Origin: Candidatus Didemnitutus sp.
Lineage (GTDB): Bacteria > Verrucomicrobiota > Verrucomicrobiia > Opitutales > Opitutaceae
Assembly: GCA_030681265.1 (NCBI GenBank)
Contig: JAUXXD010000075.1
Coordinates: 1 to 56,480 of the forward strand
Length of the DNA: 56,480 nucleotides
Direction: 5' to 3'
The first letter of the stretch is position 1. Each line of letters opens with the position of its first letter. Both the position numbers and the translations under genes were made by a program. The notes under the pieces were generated by a model. That model had not been told where the DNA came from. It saw only the letters and a program-made list of their open reading frames with translations, and searched no databases. Of the stretch, positions 4,668 through 56,480 are shown one piece after another.

Positions 4668-5453
4668 TTAAAGAAGGTTAATAATACCAGCCTTGTCGCC
4701 CTTGGCTGCCAAAATGTGAACCAAATCGCCCTTGGTCCATGAGGCCACCGCCAAGCCGTCTTTGATCAGAATTTCAGGACTGGTTGAATCGCCCTGCGCG
4801 GCGGGCGCGAAGTCGCTCCGACGGGCGATGTAGAGATGATACACTTGGTCCCGCTTGAAGCAGACCTCCAAGACCTCGCGGCCCGCGACCGTGAGCGTGC
4901 GGCAACCCAGCGCCTGCAATCCGGCAAAATCAACCGGGAGGCCCACCGTAAGACGCTGTCCGGGCGTCTCCAGCCAACGTCCGAGCTCCCCTATCTGATC
5001 CGCATGCACTCCATCGCCGTGCATCCCCGCACTCTCGGCCAACGCGAGTTCACGCAGGGTGGCCAAGTTTGCCGGCATCGCCTCGGTGTGCCCGGCAACT
5101 GAAGTGCCAGACGGGTTTAGACGGATGAAGGCCAAGGTGCCCAGCGTCGCGATGAGCGTAAGCGAGGCGGCCATCGCCAGCCAAGGCGTGCGCCGCCACC
5201 AAGCACGTTCGTCGCGCTTCGTTGATTGTGCGGCGGCACCGGCCAGGATGAGTGCACGCAGATCGGGCGGCGGTTGCACCTGACGGAGCGCGTTGGCGAC
5301 ACTGGCGTCGAAGCGCTCTTGTTTAGCCAACCACTCGCCGAGCAAAGGATCGCGCGCCGCTTGGTCGAGTGCTTCGCGCATGGTCGGATTTTGGTCGTCC
5401 GATCCGTCGGGACGACGGGCTTGCAGAATAAATTTTGCTTCGTCGCTGTTCAT
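4668..5453 (-). CDS. Membrane anti-sigma factor partner of the ECF sigma factor
   Basis: A 261-residue protein. The cytoplasmic N-terminal domain (1-85) holds EWLAKQERFD and PPPDLRALILAGA, one membrane segment spans about 88-110 after a W-W-R-R boundary, and a C-terminal domain of about 150 residues lies on the far side. The start overlaps the sigma gene by ATGA, so the two are translationally coupled, the usual arrangement for an ECF sigma and its anti-sigma. It has no HxxxCxxC zinc motif, so it is not a ZAS-type anti-sigma. The N-terminal 75 residues align with those of the protein encoded at 49943-50701. The function is inferred from architecture and coupling. Confidence 0.75.
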   Translation of the reverse strand: MNSDEAKFILQARRPDGSDDQNPTMREALDQAARDPLLGEWLAKQERFDASVANALRQVQPPPDLRALILAGAAAQSTKRDERAWWRRTPWLAMAASLTLIATLGTLAFIRLNPSGTSVAGHTEAMPANLATLRELALAESAGMHGDGVHADQIGELGRWLETPGQRLTVGLPVDFAGLQALGCRTLTVAGREVLEVCFKRDQVYHLYIARRSDFAPAAQGDSTSPEILIKDGLAVASWTKGDLVHILAAKGDKAGIINLL

Positions 5454-6010
5454 TTCTGGCCTCCTTTTTTCGCGGAAATAGCCGGGGGAAATTGAATCAC
5501 TTTTTGATCGGCTGCGGTTAGCCGGCGTGCCAGCAAAGTTCGCAACTGGGCTTTGCCGCGCGAGAGGCGCGACATCACGGTGCCGATGGGCAATTCGAGC
5601 AGCTCGGCGATTTCCAAATAGGACATGTCTTCGAGATAAAAAAGCGCCAGCGGCGCTCTAAAGGCTTCATCCACTTCTTGCAGCGCGGCCATGACTTGCT
5701 GGCCGTCGAGCCGCTCGAAATCCCCCGCCGGTTCCAATACCGGCTCCTGCTGGCCGGGCGGCAGATCCTCGATGGATTGCGAACGTTGATCGCGCCGCCG
5801 ACCGCGCAAGAACTCCCGGTAAAGCGTGGTGAAGAGCCAAGTCTTGGCCTTGTCCTGCTCACGCAGCGAACTGCCCTTGGTCGCCCACACATAGAAAGTC
5901 TGCTGCACGAGGTCGCAGGCATCAGCCTCGCGCCGGGCGAGACTCAGGGCGAAGCGGTAGAGCGCCGCGTAGTGCGCATCGACCAAGTTAGTGAAAGCGT
6001 CGGCTGACAT
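5450..6010 (-). CDS. ECF-type RNA polymerase sigma factor
   Basis: 186 residues. Sigma region 2 lies at about 8-75 (ACDLVQQTFYVWA, then KTWLFTTLYREFL, the core-binding and -10 reading parts). Sigma region 4 lies at about 105-165 (LFYLEDMSYLEIAELL, then IGTVMSRLSRGKAQL, the HTH that reads -35). Region 3 is absent, as in ECF sigma factors. It is followed by and overlaps the membrane anti-sigma gene. Its own upstream DNA carries GGAATAAA and CTCATAT 18 nt after GGAAT, the same motif found before many operons here, so it is probably autoregulated and the likely reader of that motif. The -10 box ends 6 nt before the ATG. Confidence 0.92.
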   Translation of the reverse strand: MSADAFTNLVDAHYAALYRFALSLARREADACDLVQQTFYVWATKGSSLREQDKAKTWLFTTLYREFLRGRRRDQRSQSIEDLPPGQQEPVLEPAGDFERLDGQQVMAALQEVDEAFRAPLALFYLEDMSYLEIAELLELPIGTVMSRLSRGKAQLRTLLARRLTAADQKVIQFPPAISAKKGGQK

Positions 6011-6016
6011 CGTGGA

Positions 6017-6046
6017 ATATGAGTTCTACCCGCCCGCGTTTATTCC
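6017..6046 (-). promoter_or_regulatory. ECF-type promoter of the sigma/anti-sigma operon
   Basis: GGAAT (6042-6046, extended GGAATAAA), 18 nt, CTCATAT (6017-6023). Only 6 nt separate the -10 from the ATG, so the message may be leaderless. Confidence 0.6.
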
Positions 6047-7192: not shown

Positions 7193-7708
7193 TCATGCGC
7201 CCAGCGCGTTCAGGATGCGTCCGGCGTGAGCCTCGGCATAACCTGCCGCGTAAGCTTCCAGGGTGCGGGCGATCTCATCGCGCACGCGGCGAAACTCGCC
7301 CCGCACCTCCTCCGGCGTGCCGGTCGCGTGCGCCGGATCATCGAAGGCCCAGTGGTAACGAAACTGTTGGCCGGGGAAAACCGGACACACCTCGTTGGCC
7401 CGTCCGCAAACCGTGATGACCGTGTGCACCGCCTGCTCCCGAAACTCGTCCAACGATTTCGACCGATGCCCGGCGATGTCGATGCCCAGCTCCGCCATGA
7501 CCGCGATGGCCTCGGGATGCACGTAACCGGCCGGTCGGCTGCCCGCGCTGGCCACCCGAAACAAATGCCCGGCGCGGGCGCGCAACAGCCCCTCGGCCAT
7601 GTGGCTGCGACACGAATTGCCGGTGCAGAGCACCAGCACGAGCGGACGCACCGGATATTCCGGTTCGAGAACAGACGCGGGAGGGTGGGATGTTGGATTG
7701 GATTTCAT
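7193..7708 (-). CDS. arsC: Arsenate reductase, thioredoxin-coupled type (LMW phosphatase fold)
   Basis: 171 residues. The phosphatase loop CTGNSCRS gives the Cx5R nucleophile pair Cys28/Arg34. The redox relay cysteines Cys101 and Cys108 (TVCGRANEVCPVF) sit 7 apart, as in thioredoxin-linked ArsC. The Asp-Pro acid motif is in WAFDDPA. The enzyme reduces arsenate to arsenite in the cytoplasm using thioredoxin. Its start overlaps the stop of the histidine kinase by one base (TAATG), so the two are co-translated. It supplies the arsenite that ArsM (48.7 kb) would methylate. No arsenite pump (ArsB/ACR3) or ArsR repressor is in the window. Confidence 0.93.
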   Translation of the reverse strand: MKSNPTSHPPASVLEPEYPVRPLVLVLCTGNSCRSHMAEGLLRARAGHLFRVASAGSRPAGYVHPEAIAVMAELGIDIAGHRSKSLDEFREQAVHTVITVCGRANEVCPVFPGQQFRYHWAFDDPAHATGTPEEVRGEFRRVRDEIARTLEAYAAGYAEAHAGRILNALGA

Positions 7709-9435
7709 TATGTCGATAAGGCGACCTGCTGCGGCGCTGATGCGGCTGGCGCGTCGGCGAGACGACGCGGGAAGTAGAGGTGGAAAACCGCGCCCACGCC
7801 GGGCCGGGGCGGAGCCAATTCCAGATGACCGCCATGCTGCTCCACGATGCCCTTGGCCGAGGCGAGCCCGAGCCCGGAGCCCTTGCCTTCGGATTTGGTC
7901 GTGAAGAAGGGCTCGAAAAGTCGCGCGCGCGCTTCATCGGAAATGCCCGGACCAGTGTCCGCGATCTCCAGGCGCACACAATCCGTCAGCCGGCAGACAC
8001 TCGCCGTGCAGTGCGCCGAGTCCCCCGGCCAATTCTGCACGGTGATGGTGACGCCGCCCGCCTCGTCCATCGCATCCCGGGCATTGATGACCAGATTGAG
8101 CAACACCTGCTCCAGCTGCGCGGGATCGAGCATCACCGGCCAGAGAACATCGTCGGCACGCACCTCCAACCGCACCCCCGCACCGGCCGCCTGAGTCAAG
8201 ATCGGCTCCATGTCCGCCAGGGCCGCGCCCAGGTCCACGGAACGCACCTGAAGTTTCTGCCTGCGCCCGAGCGCCAGCACCTGGCGGGTCAACGCGGTCG
8301 CCCGCGCGCAACTCTTCACGATCTTGTCGAGATAACCGGCTGTGGTCGGATCGTCTTCACCCGCACGCCCTCGCGCTAGATCGGCGAAACCCTGAATCAC
8401 GCTAATCAGGTTGTTGAAATCGTGGGCCACGCCACTCGCCAGCCGACCGATGGCCTCGGATTTCTGGGCCTGATAAAATTCACGCTGCGCCAGCCTCAAA
8501 TCCGTGACGTCCGCGAGCACATGCACCGTATCCTCGCATCCTCCGTCTTCCAGTCGCCGACTGTGCAGGACCGCCCGTCGCGGCACATTCCCCCGACCCA
8601 TCGGCACCGCGATCTCGGGTGCCCGCCCCGAGCCCCCGCCCCTCGGTTCCTCGATCCGCGACCACAGCTCGCCAGCGCGACTGCCGAGAATGTCCGCGCC
8701 GCCCGATTCCGCAAAAAGGCGACGCGCCTCGGCGTTTGCGAAAAGCACGCGATCCCCGGCATCGCACAACAGCACCGCCGTGGGCAGGTTCTCTAGGAAG
8801 CGGCGAAACTTTTCCTCCGCCCTGACAGTCCGACGCCTCCAGCGAGAGGAGAGCGGCCACACCGCCGCGCCGCCCGTCACAGCCATCAGGCCGATCAACA
8901 TCCCCGCCTCGCGATTCAAGCGTGACGGCATCGCCAAGGCGGCCTCCTCGCCTTTCCGTCCGCCCACATGCACCGCCACCCGCCACCCGGTGCCTTCCAC
9001 CGGAGCCTGGGCCACGATGGCCGTGCGATCAAAATTCGCCAAGGTCGAGCCCACCACCTTGCGCTCGGGGTGACACAAGACCGAGTCGGCGGAATCCAAC
9101 AAGCACACGAAGCCCGCCTCGGTCGCAGGCGTCGCGCCGAGGCTTACCTGAAAACGCGCCCGTGTGTCTTCCTGCGTGCGTCCCAGAGCGATATCGGCGG
9201 CCAGCAGCGCGGCGAGACGGCGAGCCTCGCGGTCCGCACCGGCCAGGATTTCCGCACGCTCCTGTTTTTCCGCCGCAGGATATACGCGCAGATTCAACCA
9301 GACCAACGCACCAGCTCCGACCACACAAAGCGCAAGCACGACCCCAAGGATTTCCCATCGTAGCCCGAAGCACCCCGCGAAATTCGACGAAGATCGCGCC
9401 TGCGGGGCTTTGTGTTTTTCCGAATAGGACGACAT
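7708..9435 (-). CDS. Membrane sensor histidine kinase with PAS domain
   Basis: 575 residues. Membrane helices at about 29-50 and 178-198 bracket a sensor domain of about 125 residues. A PAS-like domain follows (about 207-315), then a HisKA dimerisation segment with phospho-acceptor His338 (VAHDFNNLISV). The ATPase domain has the N box at Asn451 (NARDAMDE), G1 DTGPGIS, F box LFEPFFTTK and G2 GSGLGLA. AHDFNN marks the NtrB-like group, often found in hybrid kinases, but no receiver domain is attached and no response regulator is encoded in the window. It is in an operon between TVP38 and arsC, so it may sense arsenic, phosphate or redox stress; this is context only. Confidence 0.9.
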   Translation of the reverse strand: MSSYSEKHKAPQARSSSNFAGCFGLRWEILGVVLALCVVGAGALVWLNLRVYPAAEKQERAEILAGADREARRLAALLAADIALGRTQEDTRARFQVSLGATPATEAGFVCLLDSADSVLCHPERKVVGSTLANFDRTAIVAQAPVEGTGWRVAVHVGGRKGEEAALAMPSRLNREAGMLIGLMAVTGGAAVWPLSSRWRRRTVRAEEKFRRFLENLPTAVLLCDAGDRVLFANAEARRLFAESGGADILGSRAGELWSRIEEPRGGGSGRAPEIAVPMGRGNVPRRAVLHSRRLEDGGCEDTVHVLADVTDLRLAQREFYQAQKSEAIGRLASGVAHDFNNLISVIQGFADLARGRAGEDDPTTAGYLDKIVKSCARATALTRQVLALGRRQKLQVRSVDLGAALADMEPILTQAAGAGVRLEVRADDVLWPVMLDPAQLEQVLLNLVINARDAMDEAGGVTITVQNWPGDSAHCTASVCRLTDCVRLEIADTGPGISDEARARLFEPFFTTKSEGKGSGLGLASAKGIVEQHGGHLELAPPRPGVGAVFHLYFPRRLADAPAASAPQQVALST

Positions 9436-9445
9436 GACGGAAATT

Positions 9446-10162
9446 TTAGTTCGCCGACGTCTCGCGCAGCGCGCGGCGGGCGAGACGGGTCACATAAATG
9501 GTCACGCCCAGCGTCGCGAGCAGGCCGACGCCGAGGTAAACATAACGCAGTGTCCCGCCGTCGTCGGCTCCGACACCACCCGCCGCCGCCTCGGCCGCCG
9601 CACGTCCGATGTATCCGAGGTATACATACAGCAGGGTTCCGGGCAGCATGCCCGCCCAGCTCGCCAGCACGTAGGGCCAGAAGCGGATCGAGGTCAGCCC
9701 GAGCAGGTAATTGAGCACGTTGAACGGAAACACCGGCGAGAGCCGCATCAGGAAGACGATGCGAGCGCCCTCGCGACCAACCGCGCGGTCCACCGAGGCG
9801 AACTTTTCATTGCCGCCGAAACGGGCGCTCACCGCGTCGCGCGCCAGGTGGCGCGAGATCAAAAACGCCGCCGCCGCCCCCAGGGTCGAGCCCAGCGATA
9901 CCGCCGCCAGGCCGAGACCGATCCCAAAGATGAACCCCGCGCCCAAGGTCAGCGCCGAGCCCGGCAGGAACAACACCGCCGCGAGCACATAGACCGCCAC
10001 GAAGACAACAAATCCCCATGCCCCGAGCCCGGCCACCCAAGCGTTAAACGTCTCCAACCATTCCCCCACCGGCAGGGTGCGCAGCGCCACGAGCACGGCC
10101 ACCACCAACAGCGCGGCGACCAGCGGCTTCCACGGGAATTTTTTCTCGTTCGCGTTGCTCAT
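9446..10162 (-). CDS. TVP38/TMEM64 family membrane protein (DedA-like)
   Basis: 238 residues with about six hydrophobic segments. The family core is recognisable: FLPGSALTLGAGFIFG, then a re-entrant region, LMRLSPVFPFNVLNYLLGL and WAGMLPGTLLYVYLG. The family is thought to handle lipids or small solutes in the inner membrane; the precise role is unknown. The start overlaps the stop of the upstream flavoprotein by ATGA. TVP38 and MerA-like flavoproteins are frequent neighbours, sometimes fused, in other bacteria, which suggests joint action in a membrane redox or detoxification step. Confidence 0.88.
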   Translation of the reverse strand: MSNANEKKFPWKPLVAALLVVAVLVALRTLPVGEWLETFNAWVAGLGAWGFVVFVAVYVLAAVLFLPGSALTLGAGFIFGIGLGLAAVSLGSTLGAAAAFLISRHLARDAVSARFGGNEKFASVDRAVGREGARIVFLMRLSPVFPFNVLNYLLGLTSIRFWPYVLASWAGMLPGTLLYVYLGYIGRAAAEAAAGGVGADDGGTLRYVYLGVGLLATLGVTIYVTRLARRALRETSAN

Positions 10163-12424: not shown

Positions 12425-13132
12425 TCAGTGAGAGCGCCCGCCCGATTTTTTATTCCGCACGAAAAACCAGCGCCCCAGGGTCAACGCATCCGCCCACGTT
12501 TGCCGCACCACGCCGCGCCGATGGAAACGCCGGTCCGAACTCACCACCACGGGACGTAACAACACGGTGCGCCCGAGCGAGCGCAGCCGCAGAGAGAAAT
12601 CCACGTCCTCCAATTCATCCGTGATCAAAAAACCGCCGAGTCGGCGAAACGCATCGGCCCGCACCCACTGCACCTGATCGCCGAAGCTCGGCCCCCCGAG
12701 TCGCACCCGCCAATCCGCCATCCATGCGGTGATCCGCAGCAGCCGCGAATCGCTGGCGAACCGCCGCCGAAAACACCCGCCCACGCACTCCCGCTCGCCG
12801 CCCAGCGCCTCGCGCACCGCTTCTCTCCAGCCCTCGGGCAGCAGCGTGTCCGCATGCAGAAACACCAAAACCTCGCCTCGTGCATGACCTGCGCCATGGT
12901 TCATTTGCGCCGCGCGCCCAAGGTTCGGCGAACGCAACACCCGCACCCCCAGTCGCCCGGCCATTTCGGCGCTGCCGTCGTGGCTGCCACCATCGACCAC
13001 GATTACCTCCACCGCCGAGTCGTTCAGCCCCGGTGCGCTCAGCACCAGGGCGAGATGCGCCGCTTCGTCGATCACCGGCACGATCACCGAAATCGTGAGG
13101 CAAGCGCGGTCGGTTTTGGCGACGGTCGGCAT
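12425..13132 (-). CDS. Glycosyltransferase family 2, arsenosugar-type (TIGR04283-like)
   Basis: 235 residues. GT-A fold with ISVIVPVIDEAAHL at the start, VDGGSHDGS, GRAAQMNHGA, FLHADTLLPEGW (the DxD-like metal site) and FGDQVQWVRADAFRRLGGF. This last set is characteristic of the TIGR04283 group, named for its repeated occurrence beside arsenosugar genes. It would transfer a sugar, possibly in making arsenosugar phospholipids. The matching TIGR04282-type enzyme is 29 kb away beside arsS. It ends one base before the TlpA-like gene's stop codon begins, so both share one message. Confidence 0.82.
   Translation of the reverse strand: MPTVAKTDRACLTISVIVPVIDEAAHLALVLSAPGLNDSAVEVIVVDGGSHDGSAEMAGRLGVRVLRSPNLGRAAQMNHGAGHARGEVLVFLHADTLLPEGWREAVREALGGERECVGGCFRRRFASDSRLLRITAWMADWRVRLGGPSFGDQVQWVRADAFRRLGGFLITDELEDVDFSLRLRSLGRTVLLRPVVVSSDRRFHRRGVVRQTWADALTLGRWFFVRNKKSGGRSH
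12428..12456 (-). promoter_or_regulatory. ECF-type promoter candidate before DUF547
   Basis: GGAAT (12452-12456, GGAATAAA), then CTCTCAC (12428-12434) after 17 nt, one shorter than most sites. It lies inside the end of the glycosyltransferase gene. The -10 ends 6 nt before the DUF547 ATG, so a leaderless transcript is possible. Confidence 0.5.
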
Positions 13133-42445: not shown

Positions 42446-43462
42446 TCAGGCGAGCTGGGTGGCCGGGGTCGCGTCGGCCTCCGCCTCCGCTTCGGCGTCG
42501 ATCAACGAGCCGGTGCAACTAGAGCCAGCCCCGGCGGTGCAGCCATAGCAGTGCGCGGCGGTGGCGATGGGAGCACCTTCGAGCGCGGCGGGATCGAGAT
42601 CCCAAAGATGACGCACGCCGCGTCCGACGACACCCGCCATCGGGAGCTTCATCATTTGGTTGAAGTCGCAGTCGAAGAGTTCGCCCTGCCAGCTCACGTT
42701 GATCGTGTCGCGACACATGAGGCCGGCGACGGTCGCGGGGTTGAAGGCGTTGACCAGAAATTCGAGGTAGGACTCGTAGTGGCCGTTGTGCCGCAGCCAG
42801 GACGCGAAGCGCGAGACGGGCAGATTGGTGATGGTGAAGAGTTGGTTGAACTCGATGCCGAAGTGTTCGCGCAGCTCGCGTTTGTAGTCGGCCTCCAGTT
42901 CGGCCTGCGGGCCGGGGAGCTTCGCGCCGTTGGGGTTGAAGACGAGGTGGAGCGGCAGCGCGGGATCGATGCCGTAGCCGAGCGCGTTGAGTTTTTGCAG
43001 GGCGGCGATGCTCGAATCGAACACGCCCTCGCCGCGTTGGGCGTTCACGTTTTCCGGCGAGTAGCAGGGCATGGAGGCGACGATCTCCACGCGGTGCGTG
43101 CGGAGAAACTCGGCCATGCCCTCGTAGCCGGGCTCCAGCAGGATGGTGAGGTTGCAGCGGTCGATAATGGTGGCTTGCGGATCGAGCGTGCGCAGAGCGC
43201 TGACCAGATACTTGAAGGCGGGCATCATCTCGGGCGCGCCGCCGGTGAGGTCGATGACAGGCAGGCGCGCGCGGCGTTGCCAGGCTAGGATGCGGTCAAC
43301 CGTCTCGTAATCCATGATCTCCTTGCGACCGGGACCGGCGTTCACGTGGCAGTGCGAGCAGGTAAGGTTGCAGAGTTTGCCGACATTGAGCTGAAGGATG
43401 CGCGGCGCGGCGCGGCGCAGGGTCAGACCGTGACGGGCGAGGGTTTCGGTAAAGGTGGGCAT
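42446..43462 (-). CDS. arsS: Arsenosugar biosynthesis radical SAM protein ArsS
   Basis: 338 residues from the ATG at 43462. The radical SAM cluster motif is LCNLTCSHCHV (Cys31, Cys35, Cys38), followed by DLTGGAPEM. The C-terminal Cys-rich DUF3641 domain has GLMCRDTINVSWQGELFDCDFN and the end motif HCYGCTAGAGSSCTG. This is the ArsS (TIGR04167) family. ArsS adds a 5'-deoxyadenosyl group to dimethylarsenite, giving the adenosine precursor of arsenosugars. ArsM, which makes the dimethyl arsenical, is encoded 5 kb away under the same type of promoter. Confidence 0.95.
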   Translation of the reverse strand: MPTFTETLARHGLTLRRAAPRILQLNVGKLCNLTCSHCHVNAGPGRKEIMDYETVDRILAWQRRARLPVIDLTGGAPEMMPAFKYLVSALRTLDPQATIIDRCNLTILLEPGYEGMAEFLRTHRVEIVASMPCYSPENVNAQRGEGVFDSSIAALQKLNALGYGIDPALPLHLVFNPNGAKLPGPQAELEADYKRELREHFGIEFNQLFTITNLPVSRFASWLRHNGHYESYLEFLVNAFNPATVAGLMCRDTINVSWQGELFDCDFNQMMKLPMAGVVGRGVRHLWDLDPAALEGAPIATAAHCYGCTAGAGSSCTGSLIDAEAEAEADATPATQLA

Positions 43463-43511
43463 AGGGAAAAGGGTGGTGCTACGAGTCCGGACCGATGGGC
43501 GGGCGATGACG

Positions 43512-43541
43512 GTAAGAGTGATTGGGAGGGGCATCTATTCC
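43512..43541 (-). promoter_or_regulatory. ECF-type promoter of the arsS operon
   Basis: GGAAT (43537-43541, GGAATAGA), 18 nt, CTCTTAC (43512-43518), 49 nt before the arsS ATG. Confidence 0.62.
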
Positions 43542-48740: not shown

Positions 48741-49907
48741 TTAGCAGCAGCTGGAGCCCTCCCCCGAACCCCCACCGGGCGCGCAGCACGCGGCGGCCTC
48801 GGTGGTGGTGGCGTAGTCGGTGCCCTTGGTCTCGCGCGGATCGCGCACGGCTTGCTTGCAGCTCGCGTAGGTCTTGGCCTCGGCGAGCGGCACGGGTGTG
48901 AACGGCTCGATCAACTCGAACGCGTCGCCGTAGTGGCCGGCCTTGATGAGCTGGAAAGTCTTGTCGCAAATCGCCTCGCGCACGCCGCGTCGGAAGGTGT
49001 GGCCGTCGTCGTCGGTGAAGGCCTTGCCCGGCCCCTTGTAGATGATGGCCTGGCGGCGTTCGAGGCAGGGGCCTTGTTTGCCCTTGTAGGCGCGCACCGT
49101 GATGGAGCGGAACTCGATGCCGGCGACCGTGCGCCATGGGGCCGCGTCGTATTTGACCAGCTCGATGCCGTGAAACCCGGCCTGCTCGAAGGCGGCGAGA
49201 AACTCACGCTCAGTCAACGCGCCGGAGATGCAGCCGCTCCACAGCTCGGGGTCGCGTTGCAGGTGGTCGGGCACGATCTCGTCGCTCACGATGTCGGAGA
49301 TGACGGCGCGGCCGCCGACCTTCAGGACGCGGAAGAGTTCGGCGAACATCTGCGCCTTCAGGTGAGGCTCGACGAGGTTGAGCACGCAGTTGGAGACAAC
49401 CACGTCGATGCTGGCGTCGGGCACGAGCGGATGCTCGCGACGCAGGCGGGCGGCGGCGGCCTCGGCGGCGAGCCAGCCGTTGGCGTCGCGCACGGGCGCG
49501 GCGGCGAGTTCGGCGTCGAGCCGTTCGAGATCGAGCGCGAGGTCTTGGATGCGGCCCTTGCGAAACTCGACGTTGTCGTGGCCGATGCGCCCGGCGACGA
49601 CCGGCGCGTTGCGACGAGCGACTTCCAGCATGTCGTCGGTCATATCGACACCGATCACGCGACCGGTCGGGCCGACCACCTGCGAGGCGATGAAGCATAT
49701 TTTCCCGGTGCCGGAGCCGAGATCGAGGACCGTCTCGCCGGGCTGCACCCAGCGGGAAGGATCGCCGCAACCATAGTCGCGCTCGATGACCTCGGCGGGG
49801 ATGACCTTGAGGTATTTTGGGTCGTAATCGACGGGGCAACAGAGGGCGGCCTCGGCGGCTTTTGCTGCGTTGGAGTAGCGTTCACGGACGGCGGTTTCAG
49901 TGGTCAT
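48741..49907 (-). CDS. arsM: Arsenite S-adenosylmethionine methyltransferase
   Basis: 388 residues from the ATG at 49907. SAM motif VLDLGSGTGKICF with Cys71, then VSNCVLNLVE (Cys174) and WSGCISGAL (Cys226), the three conserved arsenite-binding cysteines of ArsM. Further Cys47, an N-terminal Cys23-Cys24 pair and a C-terminal Cys-rich tail (AACCAPGGGSG..SSCC) are present, as in many bacterial ArsM. It methylates As(III) to mono- and dimethyl arsenicals, the substrate for ArsS. It lies 35 bp after the second anti-sigma-like gene and before pst genes. Confidence 0.95.
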   Translation of the reverse strand: MTTETAVRERYSNAAKAAEAALCCPVDYDPKYLKVIPAEVIERDYGCGDPSRWVQPGETVLDLGSGTGKICFIASQVVGPTGRVIGVDMTDDMLEVARRNAPVVAGRIGHDNVEFRKGRIQDLALDLERLDAELAAAPVRDANGWLAAEAAAARLRREHPLVPDASIDVVVSNCVLNLVEPHLKAQMFAELFRVLKVGGRAVISDIVSDEIVPDHLQRDPELWSGCISGALTEREFLAAFEQAGFHGIELVKYDAAPWRTVAGIEFRSITVRAYKGKQGPCLERRQAIIYKGPGKAFTDDDGHTFRRGVREAICDKTFQLIKAGHYGDAFELIEPFTPVPLAEAKTYASCKQAVRDPRETKGTDYATTTEAAACCAPGGGSGEGSSCC

Positions 49908-49942
49908 GGTTGGTTGGGAAAGAGATGGGTTCAGAAAGAGGA

Positions 49943-50701
49943 TCAGATGGGACCGGAAAGGAGGGCGCGGGCATCTGCGGGATCGGCGAACGGACCGAGC
50001 GCGTAACCGTGCTTGGCATCCCGCCAAAGCATAAGCGTGGTGGCCGCGTAGGTCTCGGCGCGGGCCTCGGCCAGAGGCGGCAATTCGCCAAACGCATCCG
50101 GACGCTCAAAAACGAATAGAAGCACGGTGCGCCGTTCGTCGCCGACGAAACAAAGCAGCGAAACCTTGCCCTGCGGCGTGTCCCACTCCTGGCAGCCGAG
50201 CAACATGAGCCCGGCCAACCGGGAAGGCAGGTTGTCGGGCATAGGGGCGCTGCGCGCCGCCAGCCACGAGCGGATGCGGGCGACGTCGCCGCTCATCAAC
50301 CCGAGGGAAAGCTGGTGCTGGGAAAGTTGATGAGCCGCCTCGGCCAACGAGACCGGAGCGGGGCCGGACGGCCGCCGCAGGGTGGACCACGCGACGGACA
50401 GGGAGAGACCGAGGATCAGTCCCGCCGCAACCGGCCAGGCGGCCCTTCTCCACCAAATTGCGCGAGTGGGGTGGCCAGCGCGTGCTCCAGCCAGAATCGT
50501 GGCGCGCAAATCAGGAGGGACCGGGATGGAGCGTAAGGCTTGGGAAATCGCGCGATCCGTGCGGCGCTGATTATTCAGCCACTCACGCAACTGCGCATCA
50601 TGGCGGGCCAAGTTCAAAGCTTGGGCAAAACAGGGATCGTGTGCGTCGCCTCCGGTCGGACGAAATATCCGCAAAAGTTGTTGGGCGATCATGCGATTCA
50701 T
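49943..50701 (-). CDS. Second anti-sigma-like membrane protein, paralogue without adjacent sigma factor
   Basis: 252 residues from the ATG at 50701, chosen because the N-terminus then aligns with the anti-sigma protein at 4668-5453: RP-G-D near the start, REWLNNQRRTD against GEWLAKQERFD, and VPPDLRATILAGARA against PPPDLRALILAGAAA. One membrane helix lies at about 90-110 after an IWWRRA boundary. The C-terminal domain is longer and differs. No sigma gene is next to it. An ECF-type promoter lies upstream (50807-50836), and arsM follows. Another ATG at 50743 is possible. Confidence 0.65.
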   Translation of the reverse strand: MNRMIAQQLLRIFRPTGGDAHDPCFAQALNLARHDAQLREWLNNQRRTDRAISQALRSIPVPPDLRATILAGARAGHPTRAIWWRRAAWPVAAGLILGLSLSVAWSTLRRPSGPAPVSLAEAAHQLSQHQLSLGLMSGDVARIRSWLAARSAPMPDNLPSRLAGLMLLGCQEWDTPQGKVSLLCFVGDERRTVLLFVFERPDAFGELPPLAEARAETYAATTLMLWRDAKHGYALGPFADPADARALLSGPI

Positions 50702-50806
50702 GGCTGCACAGTCGGAAATCGGGGCGAACACAGGGTGTCCCATCCCGGCATGAAACGCGGGCGGAGGCTGATTTGAATGCGCGGCTGACGATAATTCACG
50801 ACAGCC

Positions 50807-50836
50807 GTAAGAACGCCGGACGGACCACTTTATTCC
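50807..50836 (-). promoter_or_regulatory. ECF-type promoter of the anti-sigma-2/arsM/pst operon
   Basis: GGAAT (50832-50836, GGAATAAA), 18 nt, TTCTTAC (50807-50813). The leader is about 100 nt if the ATG at 50701 is used. A start further upstream (50863) would precede this promoter. Confidence 0.55.
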
Positions 50837-51014
50837 CGTGAACTCGACGGCCGAAAGTAACATTACCCACTTTCGTCAAATTCGCCTGTTCACGGTTTCT
50901 TTGAAAGGGCTGGTAGCTGTAAGGGGTGAACATCGCCACGAGCTAGGTTAAGGCAATTTAGAATACAGCTATAATCTAATTACCAACTATTTAAATAATT
51001 ACCGTGAGAAAGAC

Positions 51015-51042
51015 TTGACAAATACTATGGGCGGTAGATAGT
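51015..51042 (+). promoter_or_regulatory. Sigma-70-like promoter candidate
   Basis: TTGACA (51015-51020), 16 bp, GATAGT (51037-51042), 21 bp before the ATG of the next gene. The -10 matches TATAAT at four of six. Confidence 0.4.
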
Positions 51043-51063
51043 GGCATATACAACACACCGCGT

Positions 51064-51471
51064 ATGGCTTCAAAAATGTTCAACTTCCCTCTCACGCCCG
51101 CCGCTGCGGAACGACTTAGTGCCGTGCGGGCGAGCACTGGACTCTCACACGCGGTCAACCTGGCGTGGGGCATGAAGCAATGGGTCGAGGCAGGAGGATT
51201 GACCGAAGGAGTGGTTTTTTCTCCAGAGTCCTCAGCGAGGCAGCAGAAAGTCCTTAAGCTCCCGCCCGAAGCAGCTTCAGATCTGGCATTTCTCAGGGAG
51301 AGAACGGGGCTGCCCCTCTGGCGAGTGGCCGACGGCGCTTTATTCTTCTGCACGATTAAACGGCATCCTGACGCCATTGCTGTAGATCGGAACCCCAAGC
51401 TCGCGGAGTTTACCGATGAAGAAATTCGTATCGAAGCGACGCGGAGAGGCTTTCGCGTAGAAAAAGACTAA
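51064..51471 (+). CDS. Unknown protein with duplicated helix-turn-like half
   Basis: 135 residues. Two similar halves: FPLTPAAAERLSAVRASTGL (about 8-27) and LPPEAASDLAFLRERTGL (about 69-87), each followed by a helix rich in Ala/Trp. The pattern (L-P-x-x-AA-x-x-L-x-x-LR-x-x-TGL) recalls ribbon-helix-helix (CopG/Arc-like) proteins, which would make this a fused tandem dimer and hence a DNA-binding candidate. I do not recognise a named family. It is the first gene of the AT-rich block. Confidence 0.6.
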   Translation: MASKMFNFPLTPAAAERLSAVRASTGLSHAVNLAWGMKQWVEAGGLTEGVVFSPESSARQQKVLKLPPEAASDLAFLRERTGLPLWRVADGALFFCTIKRHPDAIAVDRNPKLAEFTDEEIRIEATRRGFRVEKD

Positions 51472-51505
51472 AATATGTTTTGCATAAAAATATATGCCAC
51501 TAGCT

Positions 51506-51526
51506 ATGCCGCAATTAATGCGGCAT
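51506..51526. repeat. Inverted repeat between unknown genes
   Basis: ATGCCGCA-ATTAA-TGCGGCAT, a perfect 8-bp stem with a 5-nt loop, 35 bp after the stop of the 135-residue gene. There is no T run on either side, so it may be an operator or a weak terminator. Confidence 0.5.
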
Positions 51527-51606
51527 TATGAGACAAACATCTCAACCACGATCTTCCAGTAGGCCATTAACAACAGACGCATCAATAATCCCAAAACTAC
51601 AAATAT

Positions 51607-52290
51607 ATGAAAAACAGCAAACGTATTGAAGAGAGAAGTAACAGGTCTATCAATTACGAAATTTTAGTCAGCCCGTGGCTGCACAAGTATATTGATAGTC
51701 GGGAATTCCTGACCAAGATCAAGGCACGCAACATTACATTAGAAGTCGAGCTGTGTGTCATGTTGATGGGCTACATTGAAGACCCTGATCGCGATCATGC
51801 ATATGCGGTTTTCAAAAACGTTAACATCTCCAGACTCGAAGCCGATGAGCTAATGTCTCAATTCGAGTCTGAACTCCAAAAACATGGAGTGGACATCGCC
51901 AAAATGCTGGCAAAATCCACGCAGAGGTGGGCGAAATCAAATATTTTTGAATGGGCGAATTTTACGATCAACAGAATTCTGGAGTCCATCGTGGTTGATA
52001 TTTCCATATGCTCTCAGCAATTCGATGACCGCGTTCTAGAGCGGGTGATCATCGTATTATTGAATAATCTGGCGGACCATAAAGACAAAGAGGCCAAACT
52101 AACGCTTGAAATACTGGGGCTCTCGGGGGATTTGGACGCCTTAATCGAAAACTTTCGGGATCATTGGTCGCGCTATATGAGCAAGGTCGCTGACTCAAGG
52201 ATGACCCCCAGTGAAAGGATCTCGAAAGCGCAAATCGATGGCCTTCGCGGGGCTTTCTTAAAATTACACATGAAAGATGCGGATCAATAA
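51607..52290 (+). CDS. Unknown protein in AT-rich block
   Basis: 227 residues, mostly alpha-helical by appearance, acidic and lysine-rich, with no signal peptide or membrane segment. Segments such as VSPWLHKYIDSREFLTK, VAVYMLMGYIED-like VMLMGYIEDPDRDHAYAVF and RVIIVLLNNLADHKDKEAKL are not from a family I know. It is followed 22 bp later by another unknown gene, with which it probably shares a message. Confidence 0.6.
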   Translation: MKNSKRIEERSNRSINYEILVSPWLHKYIDSREFLTKIKARNITLEVELCVMLMGYIEDPDRDHAYAVFKNVNISRLEADELMSQFESELQKHGVDIAKMLAKSTQRWAKSNIFEWANFTINRILESIVVDISICSQQFDDRVLERVIIVLLNNLADHKDKEAKLTLEILGLSGDLDALIENFRDHWSRYMSKVADSRMTPSERISKAQIDGLRGAFLKLHMKDADQ

Positions 52291-52312
52291 GCAACAACCA
52301 AGAGGATGAGCC

Positions 52313-52711
52313 ATGCATGAAGAATCTGATAAATTAACACTAGGAGAGGTGTGTTTAGCTAAAACGATTGCTAGGTTTACCCTGGCCAGGTCGCTGCACT
52401 TGAAAGAAAAGAGCGAAGCCTCAATTAAAAGGCTCAAGTATCATCTGACCGATTACGAAGACGAGGAGGCGCTACGCCTCCTGAAGCCGGATGAGCCGAA
52501 TCATAATATCAAAATACATCGCATGGTGAATCATCTGGTATCGTCCGCACTCAGGAAACGCGGCGCGACTGTGATCATTGTCAAGGTGAATGCCTCGGCC
52601 TATCTGGGGTGGCTTCGTAAAAACGACATGCCGAATAATGCGGCAAACCGAGCCTTATACATTTCAACGGCACCGTATTGCGGTGCGATCCAGCAGGATA
52701 AGGGATTTTGA
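52313..52711 (+). CDS. Unknown small protein in AT-rich block
   Basis: 132 residues. The start is preceded by AGAGGA, a fair Shine-Dalgarno. The N-terminal half is helical with KRLKYHLTDYEDEEALRLL; a central segment ATVIIVKVNASAYLGWLRKND could be a beta-alpha unit. No recognised family. It lies between the 227-residue gene and the DUF3987-type ATPase gene. Confidence 0.55.
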   Translation: MHEESDKLTLGEVCLAKTIARFTLARSLHLKEKSEASIKRLKYHLTDYEDEEALRLLKPDEPNHNIKIHRMVNHLVSSALRKRGATVIIVKVNASAYLGWLRKNDMPNNAANRALYISTAPYCGAIQQDKGF

Positions 52712-52806
52712 TGCAGGCTTGTGTTTGGACGCGTTTTGGACACGCATTTCTATCATAAGTCATTTATTTTAAATAAATAACGAAGTGAGATCAAATATTC
52801 CATCCA

Positions 52807-54183
52807 ATGCGCCACCGAAGCTACAGTAACGTAAAGAACGCCCCGATGTTCCAAGCATGGCATGAGAATGTCCGATCAGGAGTAGCGCCTTGCGGCGGGC
52901 ATCCCGGCGACTCAGAGCCATCAATCAAGCGTATAGAGGAATTCATCGCGCACATTGAACTCGCACAAATCCCCAAAGCGCCCTTGTCGCAAATCTTTCC
53001 ACGCGGGCATATACTCCATGACGTTATTGATGTATTTTACGAACGGAGCCTCATTCCGGTGGAGATACCGATATGGACATTATTAATTCTGGTTGCCCAA
53101 TATCTTGGTCAGAAAGGTGTATCGCTTGAGATGGACTTGGCGGACATCGGCGGCAGAAACTCAATTAAGCCGAATCTCTGGATTTTATTATTTGCATCAT
53201 CGGCATCCGGAAAAACCCTGATCTTTGATTCAATGAAAGATGGGCTGGGTGAAATTAGCGTCACTCAGGCACCTGCTTCGACTGCAAAACTTCGTGCCCA
53301 AATAATTATATCAGAAGGGCGGCCCATGCTGCTGCTTTGGGACGAGTTTGGACAGGACATAAAAATGGCAAAATCAGGGAGGGGGAATTTCCTGGGGCTA
53401 CAAAAGCTTCTGATAAATGCCTACAATGGCGAAGTTGGCCCGTCTTTGGCAAATGGAGGTATTCAGAGCAAGACTTCGGCCCAAGTATCTCTCTTGGCAT
53501 TAAGCCAAGGAGAGTTGATTAGTGATCACTTCTCTTGGCAGGACTGGAGTTCAGGATTAATGCAACGATTCACCTTTGTATACGCGGGGACTCAAGCTGA
53601 GCCAATCAGCGACTTGGAGTATGGCAGGAAGATTGATTTCTCTGAAGTAATAAAGACCATAGCCAGCCATGGGTTCATGGAGCAGCTGTGGAGTCTTTTA
53701 TGCTCAAACTGCATTCACAGCCAATATCACACTAGCGACGAAATCATCGAGTTCGAACAGAGGAGCGTTGGCGAACTACGGCGAAAGATAGGATCTCATC
53801 AGTCATTCCTCTCCAGGTCTTTATTCACTGCTAGAAAGCTGGCACTGGTGTTGCACATCCTCAGCGGCAATTCCTCGCAAGTGATAACAATGGACGATTC
53901 AAAACTGGCGTGGAGTTTGATCGAAGGGAGCTTACATGATCTGAAGTTCCTGTCCGACACCAATGAGCAACGTTGCTTGGTGGAAGCATTCAACAAGGCC
54001 GAAAATGCATATCACTCGATGAACAATAAAGCTGATTTCACCTATAGTCACCTAATGTCACGCACGTTGAGCGGTGCCTACAAAAACGGATTGGATAAGG
54101 ACGTCGTTCGATTTATTCATAAAGCCGTCGTGCATAAAAATAGAACCCTCGGTGATGCCAAGGGCCTCACGCATGGGCTGTGA
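52807..54183 (+). CDS. DUF3987/YfjI-type P-loop ATPase
   Basis: 458 residues. Walker A in FASSASGKTLIFDS (about 130-143), Walker B in MLLLWDEFGQDIK, a sensor-like VSLLALSQGELI and a C-terminal helical region with LVLHILSGN. These fit DUF3987 proteins, primase/helicase-like ATPases common on plasmids, phages and integrative elements. A primase part is not fused here. It points to a mobile-element origin of the AT-rich block. It is convergent with the DUF499 gene. Confidence 0.75.
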   Translation: MRHRSYSNVKNAPMFQAWHENVRSGVAPCGGHPGDSEPSIKRIEEFIAHIELAQIPKAPLSQIFPRGHILHDVIDVFYERSLIPVEIPIWTLLILVAQYLGQKGVSLEMDLADIGGRNSIKPNLWILLFASSASGKTLIFDSMKDGLGEISVTQAPASTAKLRAQIIISEGRPMLLLWDEFGQDIKMAKSGRGNFLGLQKLLINAYNGEVGPSLANGGIQSKTSAQVSLLALSQGELISDHFSWQDWSSGLMQRFTFVYAGTQAEPISDLEYGRKIDFSEVIKTIASHGFMEQLWSLLCSNCIHSQYHTSDEIIEFEQRSVGELRRKIGSHQSFLSRSLFTARKLALVLHILSGNSSQVITMDDSKLAWSLIEGSLHDLKFLSDTNEQRCLVEAFNKAENAYHSMNNKADFTYSHLMSRTLSGAYKNGLDKDVVRFIHKAVVHKNRTLGDAKGLTHGL

Positions 54184-54208
54184 GGCTCTACGAAAGTGCA
54201 TCGGGCTA

Positions 54209-56480
54209 TTACCCCGCCTCAAAACCACCCTTCACCTTCAGCACCTTACTGTTCTCCGAAACGGTGCGGATGACGCCGTCCGGGAAGCCAGCGGGGAGTT
54301 CGGCTTGGATTTCCAAGGTCACCTTCACGTCTGCACCGACCAAAGCCACCAAGTGCTCAATCAGCTCCTTGGAGAGATTGCCCACGTCTCGGTTCACTCG
54401 CGCAGGGTCGATTTCCACGGTGCCAAAGTAGCGTGTAGGCTTGGCTGGAGCCGGTGGGCTGACAGGTGATCCCGACGTATCCCCGCCTACAATGGAGGTG
54501 CTCCCGCCTGCTGTGGCTGGCAAATTGGGTGATGAACTGGAGTGCTTGGAGGCTGGCTCCACGGGCTGCTCGGCAGCGAACTGAACGTTGGCTGCGGAGG
54601 GTTTTACCAATACCCCGTCTCCTTCAATTGAGACGTGGAAGCCGACACCTGTTCGCAAACCGCGATAGCGCTTTGCGACCTCATCCCAACTGTCCGCGTA
54701 GGCGAAACCGTCGGTTACCCACGTGAGCAGGCCAACGCCTTCACGCACAGCCTCCTCCAGCACATCGGGCGACCGCAGCCGTGGGAGATAGAGGTAACGG
54801 GCAAAGTCCTCCACGAGCTGCTTGATGGCCACATGCTCACCGCGCCACAGAGGCACCTTGTCGAGTTCGAGCCGGAGCGATGACGCCCCCAGCGTGGCGT
54901 AGAGCAGGCCTTCGCTTTTCAGTTTTTTGGATGCGCGCTGGGCCAGATCGTCCTGCCCCTGCAGCTTAAGGTCATTCCAAGTGATCTCCGAGCTACCCAC
55001 AGCCTGCGAGGGCACGAGCAGCCAAACGTAGGTTTCGGGAATGCGGAGCTTAACCGTATCTTCCGCCGCTTTGTGCTTGGTCTTGGCCTGACGCGACTGA
55101 AACGCATCGAGGTTCAGTTCGTCGTGACTCTCGTCGATAGAGCGCCACGCGAGCTGCTGCCTCACCGCTTGCGAGAGTTCCCCGAGGCGTGTGCGGTCGG
55201 CTCCAAGGAACACCAATGCGTTCGCATACTGGCGTGGACTGGAGCCACGCGTGCTCAGGATTTTCGCCGCTTGGTCACGCGCCGCACTACTCGGGTCTTT
55301 CGAGCCATGCGCGGTTTCGGGGCCGAGAATCACCAGACGGATCGGTTGCTCGTCAGGGATGTCCACGGACCCTCCTGGACACGCATGCACGCGGGTGAAA
55401 TCACCCTTGGCTCCGGCGAGGTCGCGCAGACGCCGACGGATTTCCTCCATCACGTCATCATCCGAAAGCTGGGCCGCCTTGCTCTCTGCCAGACGATTGA
55501 CGCTGGGCTGAGTCGAGAACCAGTAGCGCTTGCCATCTTCGTAAAGGTAGGTCGCCTGACCGTTCAGCCGACGCAACGCACCTCCAAACGTCGCGACCGT
55601 TTCGCCCGGCTGCACGCAGCCTAACTTAATTTGGCGATCATCGAGACCCTTGTTGGTCGCACGAAGCGTAGGGGCGGAACCCAAGTAAAGGGTGCGGGCC
55701 ACACGACGGGTCGCGGAATAACGGCCGAAATTCGGGTTCTCGCGGTCGAGCTTCAACGGAAGCGAATTTGATCCGTCGATGTCCTTCTCCAGCACGGGCA
55801 CCCACTGATCCTCCAGATAGCGAGTCAGCTCAAACTGCACCGCTGGGTCGTCCACTGGCACACACGCAGGCATGATGAGAAGTGATTTGTCGTTCCGCTC
55901 CCATAGCGAGTGGATGACTGAAGCCATGAGGCGCAACACGCCGCGCGTGCGCTGAAACTTCACCAGTGACGACCAATCGTTGTAGAGGCGGTCGAAGAGT
56001 TCGGGGTGAATGGGGTAGGCCGCCTTGATGCGGTCCTCATAACGGTAGTCGGTGCAGTCGGCAGGAAACTCCTGCGCCTGACTCTGGTAGAGTTCGGCGT
56101 AGGCACGAGCTACGGTATCACGGGCCTTGAACAGGGCGGGATCGGAGATCGGTTTGAAGAGACGGCGACGGACAATCTCGAAACCTTCCTCCGCGCTAGC
56201 GGGACGCCATGGCGACTCGACGCGACCGATGGCGTTTTTCAGGCGCTCCAACGCATCGCGACCACGCTGGCCACCCACCTCGACATCCGAGACGTCATTG
56301 TAGGCGTTGGTGGTATGCGGATTGGTTTCGGACGCGGGGATACTGACCACCAGCAGCGTCTGCTTTGCGGCCTTGGCCGCCTCGCTCAAAGTTTGGGCGA
56401 ACGTGAAGTGAGTTTCGAAGCTGCCTCCCGGCAGGTCATTCGCATCGTGGAGCTGGCGCGCGTAGGCCACCCATTCGTCG
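54209..56480 (-). CDS. DUF499-family ATPase, defence-associated type, N-terminus outside window
   Basis: The reading frame runs through the right edge (DEWVAYARQLHD at the edge), so the N-terminal part with the P-loop is missing. What remains is 757 codons. Conserved DUF499 stretches include LPGGSFETHFTFAQTLSEAA, IGRVESPWRPASAEEGFEIVRRRLF, AYPIHPELFDRLYNDW, FQRTRGVLRLMA and LVFLGADRTRLGELSQAVR. A linker rich in Ser/Pro/Gly (about 54440-54540) precedes a conserved C-terminal domain. In other genomes such proteins lie with DUF1156 methyltransferases and helicases in anti-phage loci. Its GC content is higher than that of the block to its left. Confidence 0.85.
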   Translation of the reverse strand, partial: DEWVAYARQLHDANDLPGGSFETHFTFAQTLSEAAKAAKQTLLVVSIPASETNPHTTNAYNDVSDVEVGGQRGRDALERLKNAIGRVESPWRPASAEEGFEIVRRRLFKPISDPALFKARDTVARAYAELYQSQAQEFPADCTDYRYEDRIKAAYPIHPELFDRLYNDWSSLVKFQRTRGVLRLMASVIHSLWERNDKSLLIMPACVPVDDPAVQFELTRYLEDQWVPVLEKDIDGSNSLPLKLDRENPNFGRYSATRRVARTLYLGSAPTLRATNKGLDDRQIKLGCVQPGETVATFGGALRRLNGQATYLYEDGKRYWFSTQPSVNRLAESKAAQLSDDDVMEEIRRRLRDLAGAKGDFTRVHACPGGSVDIPDEQPIRLVILGPETAHGSKDPSSAARDQAAKILSTRGSSPRQYANALVFLGADRTRLGELSQAVRQQLAWRSIDESHDELNLDAFQSRQAKTKHKAAEDTVKLRIPETYVWLLVPSQAVGSSEITWNDLKLQGQDDLAQRASKKLKSEGLLYATLGASSLRLELDKVPLWRGEHVAIKQLVEDFARYLYLPRLRSPDVLEEAVREGVGLLTWVTDGFAYADSWDEVAKRYRGLRTGVGFHVSIEGDGVLVKPSAANVQFAAEQPVEPASKHSSSSPNLPATAGGSTSIVGGDTSGSPVSPPAPAKPTRYFGTVEIDPARVNRDVGNLSKELIEHLVALVGADVKVTLEIQAELPAGFPDGVIRTVSENSKVLKVKGGFEAG

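Follow-up and report, generated by a model that had tools for sequence, protein, structure and literature searches.

Results

An anti-sigma-like gene without an adjacent sigma gene

The window analysed here is a 56,480-nt stretch of contig JAUXXD010000075.1 from Candidatus Didemnitutus sp., whose genome (3.56 Mb, 220 contigs) is 98.9% complete. It carries an ECF sigma gene with its cognate anti-sigma gene, referred to here as the paired copy, and a second anti-sigma-like gene, the orphan, which heads a set of genes beginning with arsM (Table 1). The preliminary description had reported that the orphan lacks a sigma partner and lies behind an ECF-type site. Both observations hold: a six-frame sigma-profile search of the whole window matches the sigma gene at 5450-6010 and no other sigma of the family, and the site is present at 50836-50808(-). 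The start codon at 50701 is backed by the ortholog alignment; the list of open reading frames has an earlier start at 50863.

Table 1. Features of the orphan locus and of the paired sigma/anti-sigma locus in the window
Feature	Coordinates	Strand	Remarks
Orphan anti-sigma-like gene	49943..50701	(-)	252 aa; anti-sigma domain (ASD) 1-76, predicted membrane helix 89-108, extracytoplasmic domain ~113-252
Orphan promoter, GGAATAA-N16-TTCTTA	50808..50836	(-)	Kind that precedes sigma genes of the family; 135 nt before the ATG
Leader, orphan promoter to orphan	50702..50807	(-)	Position of the sigma gene in relatives; no recognisable sigma remnant
arsM-like methyltransferase gene	48741..49910	(-)	Next gene 3' of the orphan, 32-nt gap
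Promoter before arsS	43513..43541	(-)	Reads CTC, as against GTC before arsS in G096 and G043
arsS	42446..43534	(-)	TIGR04167, 427 bits (cut-off 300)
Paired-sigma promoter, GGAATAA-N16-CTCATA	6018..6046	(-)	
ECF sigma gene	5450..6010	(-)	Proposed present partner of the orphan
Paired anti-sigma gene	4668..5453	(-)	Cognate of the ECF sigma 5450..6010

BLASTP aligns the orphan with the paired copy over 216 residues (33% identity, E 1e-26), so the likeness first described for residues 1-75 and their motifs is confirmed and reaches beyond them. These residues are the most similar part, with 46.7% identity to the paired copy (median over the 77 other rows of the alignment, 41.3%), and the orphan has the motifs EWL..Q.R.D, PPDLRA.ILAGA and WWRR. 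Over its whole length, it is homologous to sigma-linked anti-sigmas.

The AlphaFold2 model of the orphan (mean pLDDT 88.8, and only 54-73 at residues 71-110) has helices at residues 3-11, 23-34, 36-58, 63-76 and 89-108, the last of which was assigned as a membrane span from its sequence. The first four of these, up to the one at 63-76, make up the N-terminal part, so that the protein would share the four-helix anti-sigma layout described for RseA and ChrR (PMC4598750), a likeness of predicted helices only; among the PDB matches listed for residues 1-76 there was no anti-sigma domain. The best PDB match of the extracytoplasmic part is the C-terminal domain of RseB/MucB (2p4b, residues 217-313; Z 7.3, rmsd 3.4, 93 residues), a Z below 8 that may reflect a common arrangement only. 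RseB or MucB structures take the top six places, and the match is weak in Foldseek (E 0.022). In contrast to RseB and MucB, the domain is fused to the anti-sigma part in the orphan. Cys170 is found in 77/77 and Cys184 in 76/77 of the other aligned rows; given that both are near-universal in the family, they are not arsenic-specific, and the earlier idea that the orphan senses arsenic or phosphate is unsupported.

The paired copy matches DUF3379 (PF11859) and NF052375, both under cut-off (E 7e-6 and 3e-6), and the order of sigma then anti-sigma gene in relatives of the orphan adds to the likeness with a DUF3379/NF052375 protein accompanied by an ECF sigma. The orphan differs in that it matches neither model and has no adjoining sigma gene. 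Our literature search found nothing joining DUF3379 to a sigma factor.

The arsM-like gene scores under the NF040538 cut-off. Downstream lies a pst-like set, in which PstC is above its cut-off and PstS and PstB are under theirs, as well as a gene for a TIGR04282 glycosyltransferase (above cut-off). The window also contains a TIGR04283 arsenosugar glycosyltransferase gene at 12425-13132 (above cut-off) and an arsC-like gene at 7193-7708 (under cut-off). Taken together, arsS and the TIGR04282 and TIGR04283 glycosyltransferases mark an arsenosugar-type cluster. The listed arsS frame begins within its promoter, and the true start is probably near 43462. The orphan had been placed at the head of an arsM-pst operon; arsM and pst-like genes do lie downstream, but a single transcript is uncertain since a terminator-like hairpin with a T run follows arsM (48632-48614(-), within the frame listed for the following gene). 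The stretch shows no excess of such hairpins (11, versus 8.1 in shuffles).

Relatives of the orphan are linked to a sigma gene

A profile of the arsM-operon type, built from four of its six members and run over 252 genomes of the family, recovered six members in five genomes at 381-454 bits, the next match scoring 159. The two G465 members, which were outside profile building, scored 382 and 384 bits. Besides the orphan, the type occurs in a genome of the same genus (G096), in G043, in G058 and twice in G465. All five of these orthologs have a sigma gene directly upstream, and in all five arsM or arsS lies downstream, as it does at the orphan. That relatives of the orphan carry their own sigma, which appears to have been lost here, was missed in the preliminary description.

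The full-length tree places the orphan and three orthologs in one clade (100/98), and the tree of the C-terminal domain groups it with all five (100/100). This domain is clearly of the arsM type: it scores 131.6 bits with a profile of three orthologs versus 43.0 with the common type found elsewhere in the family, and its nearest matches are 47, 43 and 42% identical, the next being at 32%. The sigmas of three of the five orthologs group with those of a sister pair (SH-aLRT 94, not starred). In a wider set, a sigma gene lies upstream of 93/99 anti-sigma rows; the other six are the orphan, one G023 locus counted twice, a fusion protein in G071 and the second stretches of two paired proteins. A search for a sigma remnant in the orphan leader found none (best E 0.37, filters off). 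We conclude from these comparisons that the orphan state is very probably derived, through loss of the sigma gene in this lineage.

The 252 genomes contain 20 arsM loci, in 19 genomes. Nine have a family anti-sigma gene upstream: seven of these also have a sigma gene, and the other two are the focal locus and a locus truncated by its contig end. The remaining 11 have neither family sigma nor family anti-sigma in the flank. Some arsM genes in the family are headed by an ECF sigma/anti-sigma pair, an arrangement that we found stated in no paper.

Anti-sigmas outside the six-member type were also found ahead of arsM, at L113, L142, L181 and L207 (G003, G054, G471 and G458, respectively). L113 and L142 belong to another subclade, which L181 resembles by eye. 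At L165:1877-2878 (G071:C1), on a stretch without a sigma gene, a family anti-sigma domain is fused to a multi-helix membrane protein, and a membrane protein similar by eye adjoins the lone G023 anti-sigma (L105:7961-8719 and 8763-9530); neither the fusion nor the G023 neighbour had a Pfam match at E 0.01.

Besides the orphan and the window pair, a query of the whole genome with the anti-sigma sequence returned a third copy, which lies on contig C29 with its own sigma (738-1259), and a marginal fourth match (E 0.012). The genome has 31 Sigma70_r4_2 matches, 30 of which were examined as loci. Among these, identity to the window sigma exceeds 35% only for that sigma itself and for the one on C29.

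One promoter type recurs across the window

A GGAATA element followed by a TC-containing -10 element stands 33-43 nt (once 69 nt) before 26/30 sigma genes of the family, and the GGAATA hexamer was found upstream of 80/92 sigma genes in a larger set. At the orphan the distance is 135 nt, as would be expected had a sigma gene been excised behind its promoter. The window holds 13 strict sites versus 0.16 expected; of the loose form, 15 of the 51 sites in the genome fall within these 56 kb, and a reversed-pattern control gave 6 in the genome. In this respect, the window resembles a single-sigma regulon. Each of the 13 strict sites, which span positions 6018-50836, has an open start of ~100 codons within 34-236 nt.

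The base before TC in the -10 element is C at 11 sites of the window and G, T and A at one each, the T being that of the orphan promoter itself; at the relatives' loci (six stretches), it is G at 15 and C at two. The C versus G classes of window and relatives differ with a Fisher p of 2.4e-5, calculated over sites that are not independent. A GTC promoter is also found at a common-type pair in the same cluster of G043, and the sigma promoter of G058 is CTC.

The G043 pair (L099:13914-15197) lies ~21 kb from the arsM-type pair, and both pairs have the same promoter class. In two further genomes, arsM stands behind a GGAATA-type site with neither family sigma nor family anti-sigma in its flank (L201:1454 in G032; L202:794 in G070); trans control by a sigma encoded elsewhere is possible at these loci.

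The orphan anti-sigma domain has lost the signature of its own type

Subtracting the common-type from the own-type ASD score gives -6.7 bits for the orphan, compared with +18.3 to +52.2 for the seven sigma-linked members, namely five orthologs and two sister genes. For this scoring each member was left out of its profile; near copies of L037, L170 and L194 stayed in theirs. Residue 65 is Ala or Gly in all seven and Leu in the orphan. Leu65 is found in 72/77 other rows of the alignment (78 rows), and the five exceptions are exactly the three orthologs and two sister genes it contains. Residue 72 is Thr in six of the seven and Ile in one, and Gly in the orphan; T72 also occurs in other rows. The orphan, with L65 and G72, thus lacks the own-type signature (A/G at 65, T/I at 72).

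Against the consensus of the orthologs, the orphan has the common-type residue at positions 15, 65, 66, 70, 71 and 72. Among these six, only position 65 separates the types strictly, positions 15, 66, 70 and 71 being mixed among the seven members. At positions 7 and 36 the common-type residue is kept in the orthologs' consensus and absent from the orphan, and its common-type score of 81.0 bits is not above the orthologs' 75.1-87.0. The clear result is hence the loss of the own-type signature, not an overall approach to the common type. In helix 4, own-type residues have been lost and residues of the commoner type are present, most cleanly at 65. Common-type anti-sigmas pair with sigmas like that at 5450-6010.

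The fourth ASD helix of RseA contacts sigma region 2.2 (PMC4598750). The sigma columns that separate own-type sigmas here (62, 69, 73, 140 and 150) fall, by our own assignment, in regions 2.3-2.4 and 4, not 2.2. We also considered an exchange of the ASD with the paired gene. Trees of the ASD and of the C-terminal domain differ, but a single history for both is not rejected by AU tests, and such an exchange is not claimed here: p for the orphan ASD staying with the orthologs was 0.59, 0.84 and, in a later test, 0.34 (75 columns). The quick ASD tree resulted from a poor search, as trees constrained to the competing grouping had better scores. By reasoning on the best tree, a reversal and two independent gains are equally short when the sister clade is placed outside.

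The orphan has changed quickly and kept conserved positions

Between the focal genome and G096, which holds the nearest ortholog, ArsM is 82.9% identical and the anti-sigma 45.1%. At ArsM identities of 81-89%, sigma-linked anti-sigmas are 74-82% identical (three pairs among G043 and the two G465 members, which are not independent), and G096 and G043, with ArsM at only 70.2%, still share 52.0% in their anti-sigmas. By comparison with these sigma-linked pairs, the orphan is accelerated. It nevertheless retains 30/34 family-conserved columns, versus 27-29 in three orthologs. None of 1000 simulations of unconstrained drift to the same identity reached its common-type ASD score of 81.0 bits (mean 14.0), and it keeps 23/29 common-type ASD columns, versus a maximum of 14 under drift. 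The gene is therefore likely to have retained a function and not to have decayed, despite its fast evolution.

Discussion

We propose that the orphan descends from the anti-sigma member of an ancestral sigma/anti-sigma pair, of the kind that heads arsM/arsS operons in relatives. In a cluster holding two pairs with overlapping promoters, a situation still present in G043, one sigma might have become dispensable, and comparison with the relatives argues strongly that a deletion removed the sigma gene that lay between its promoter and the anti-sigma gene. The orphan would have stayed under selection and changed quickly. Its value would have lain in adding a second sensor and a second brake, and it would then have shifted to the remaining sigma at 5450-6010, which it would bind in trans, 44 kb away. 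The promoter type of this sigma appears to span the whole cluster, including the site before the orphan. The sigma would consequently co-produce ArsM and a second membrane anti-sigma, that is, negative feedback with a second sensor domain.

That the orphan acts on this sigma had been suggested before, and the suggestion stands in part. The missing own sigma, the small number of candidate sigmas and the vanished own-type signature speak for it; the ASD, whose overall distance to the common type is no smaller than in the orthologs, and the rival sigma on C29 speak against it. As the orphan promoter is one of the family's sites, feedback is plausible. On the sequence comparisons available, we consider the window sigma about as probable a present target as not, and we give similarly even weight to the combined account, in which loss of the sigma gene was followed by partner switching onto the window sigma and the arsenosugar-type cluster acquired a second brake that is self-regulated. 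The difference in promoter class between the cluster (mostly CTC) and the relatives' loci (mostly GTC) agrees in part with such a switch. More tentatively, the orphan could have been re-specified to the paralogous cluster sigma alongside a shift of the cluster's promoters from the GTC to the CTC class, giving one sigma with two membrane sensors, one of them from its own regulon. A point against partner switching is that ECF subclasses in general show little cross-talk, according to a review (PMC4598750).

The fast evolution of the orphan could also indicate a relic, a partnerless anti-sigma carried ahead of arsM after the sigma was lost. The disparity between 45% identity in the anti-sigma and 83% in ArsM would fit, as would the end branch of the orphan (0.81 and 0.95 in two trees, versus 0.34-0.44 for three orthologs in the first) and the replacement by Leu of His194, which is found in 71/77 other rows. 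We nonetheless regard a relic as unlikely, because the frame has stayed open over 252 codons after large divergence and both the family-conserved and the common-type ASD columns are retained to the extent described above. Less probable still is that the orphan binds the C29 sigma, which would tie the arsenic operon to that conserved pathway. This sigma is the only other one resembling the type among the loci examined, and its anti-sigma forms a group (99/92) with the anti-sigmas of four genomes belonging to the same genus; the promoter type, however, fills the window, which is home to the other sigma, although C29's own promoter is similar.

While the full-length trees, in which the orphan branches outside the sigma-linked orthologs (91/88 and 100/91), would allow a lone anti-sigma as the old state to which relatives added a sigma, this is very unlikely: nearly every anti-sigma row has an upstream sigma, the grouping of own-type and sister sigmas matches that of their anti-sigmas, and the sigma-type promoter of the orphan lies at 135 nt, not at 33-43 nt. 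We attach just as little probability to an assembly error that left out the sigma gene or misjoined the locus. The genome is a draft of 220 contigs and G+C falls from ~0.66 downstream to 0.3-0.5 just upstream, but values below 0.5 start at ~50850, upstream of the promoter, and such an error would not explain the changed ASD.

Returning to the proposed switch to the window sigma, NepR-type proteins, a different family of anti-sigma factors, are soluble. Two anti-sigmas acting on one ECF sigma are already known from Sinorhizobium meliloti, where RpoE2 is served by RsiA1 and RsiA2, one of them encoded elsewhere (PMC8103513), which is the arrangement proposed here, but with anti-sigmas of the NepR type. 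Loss of a second sigma is not described for RpoE2 in the excerpted text of PMC8103513. Our literature search found nothing on an arsenosugar/ArsS/ArsM operon, nor the wording "orphan anti-sigma factor". Cross-talk and insulation of sigma/anti-sigma pairs are poorly understood (PMC4598750). With five relatives that have the sigma and one that does not, the locus offers a small natural experiment on rewiring, and the residues to consider for specificity are 65 first, followed by 66 and 70-72.

A low-G+C insertion as the direct cause of sigma loss is unsupported: values below 0.5 occur only from ~50850 onward, upstream of the promoter at 50836, and not between promoter and orphan. The region 50850-54200 is mostly low in G+C (0.43-0.53 in 600-base windows, versus ~0.66 downstream) and, directly upstream of the orphan promoter, holds small unknown genes and a DUF3987-like gene (under cut-off). 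It is adjoined by a DUF499 gene at 54209-56470 with a partial, under-cut-off match to an anti-phage-associated family.
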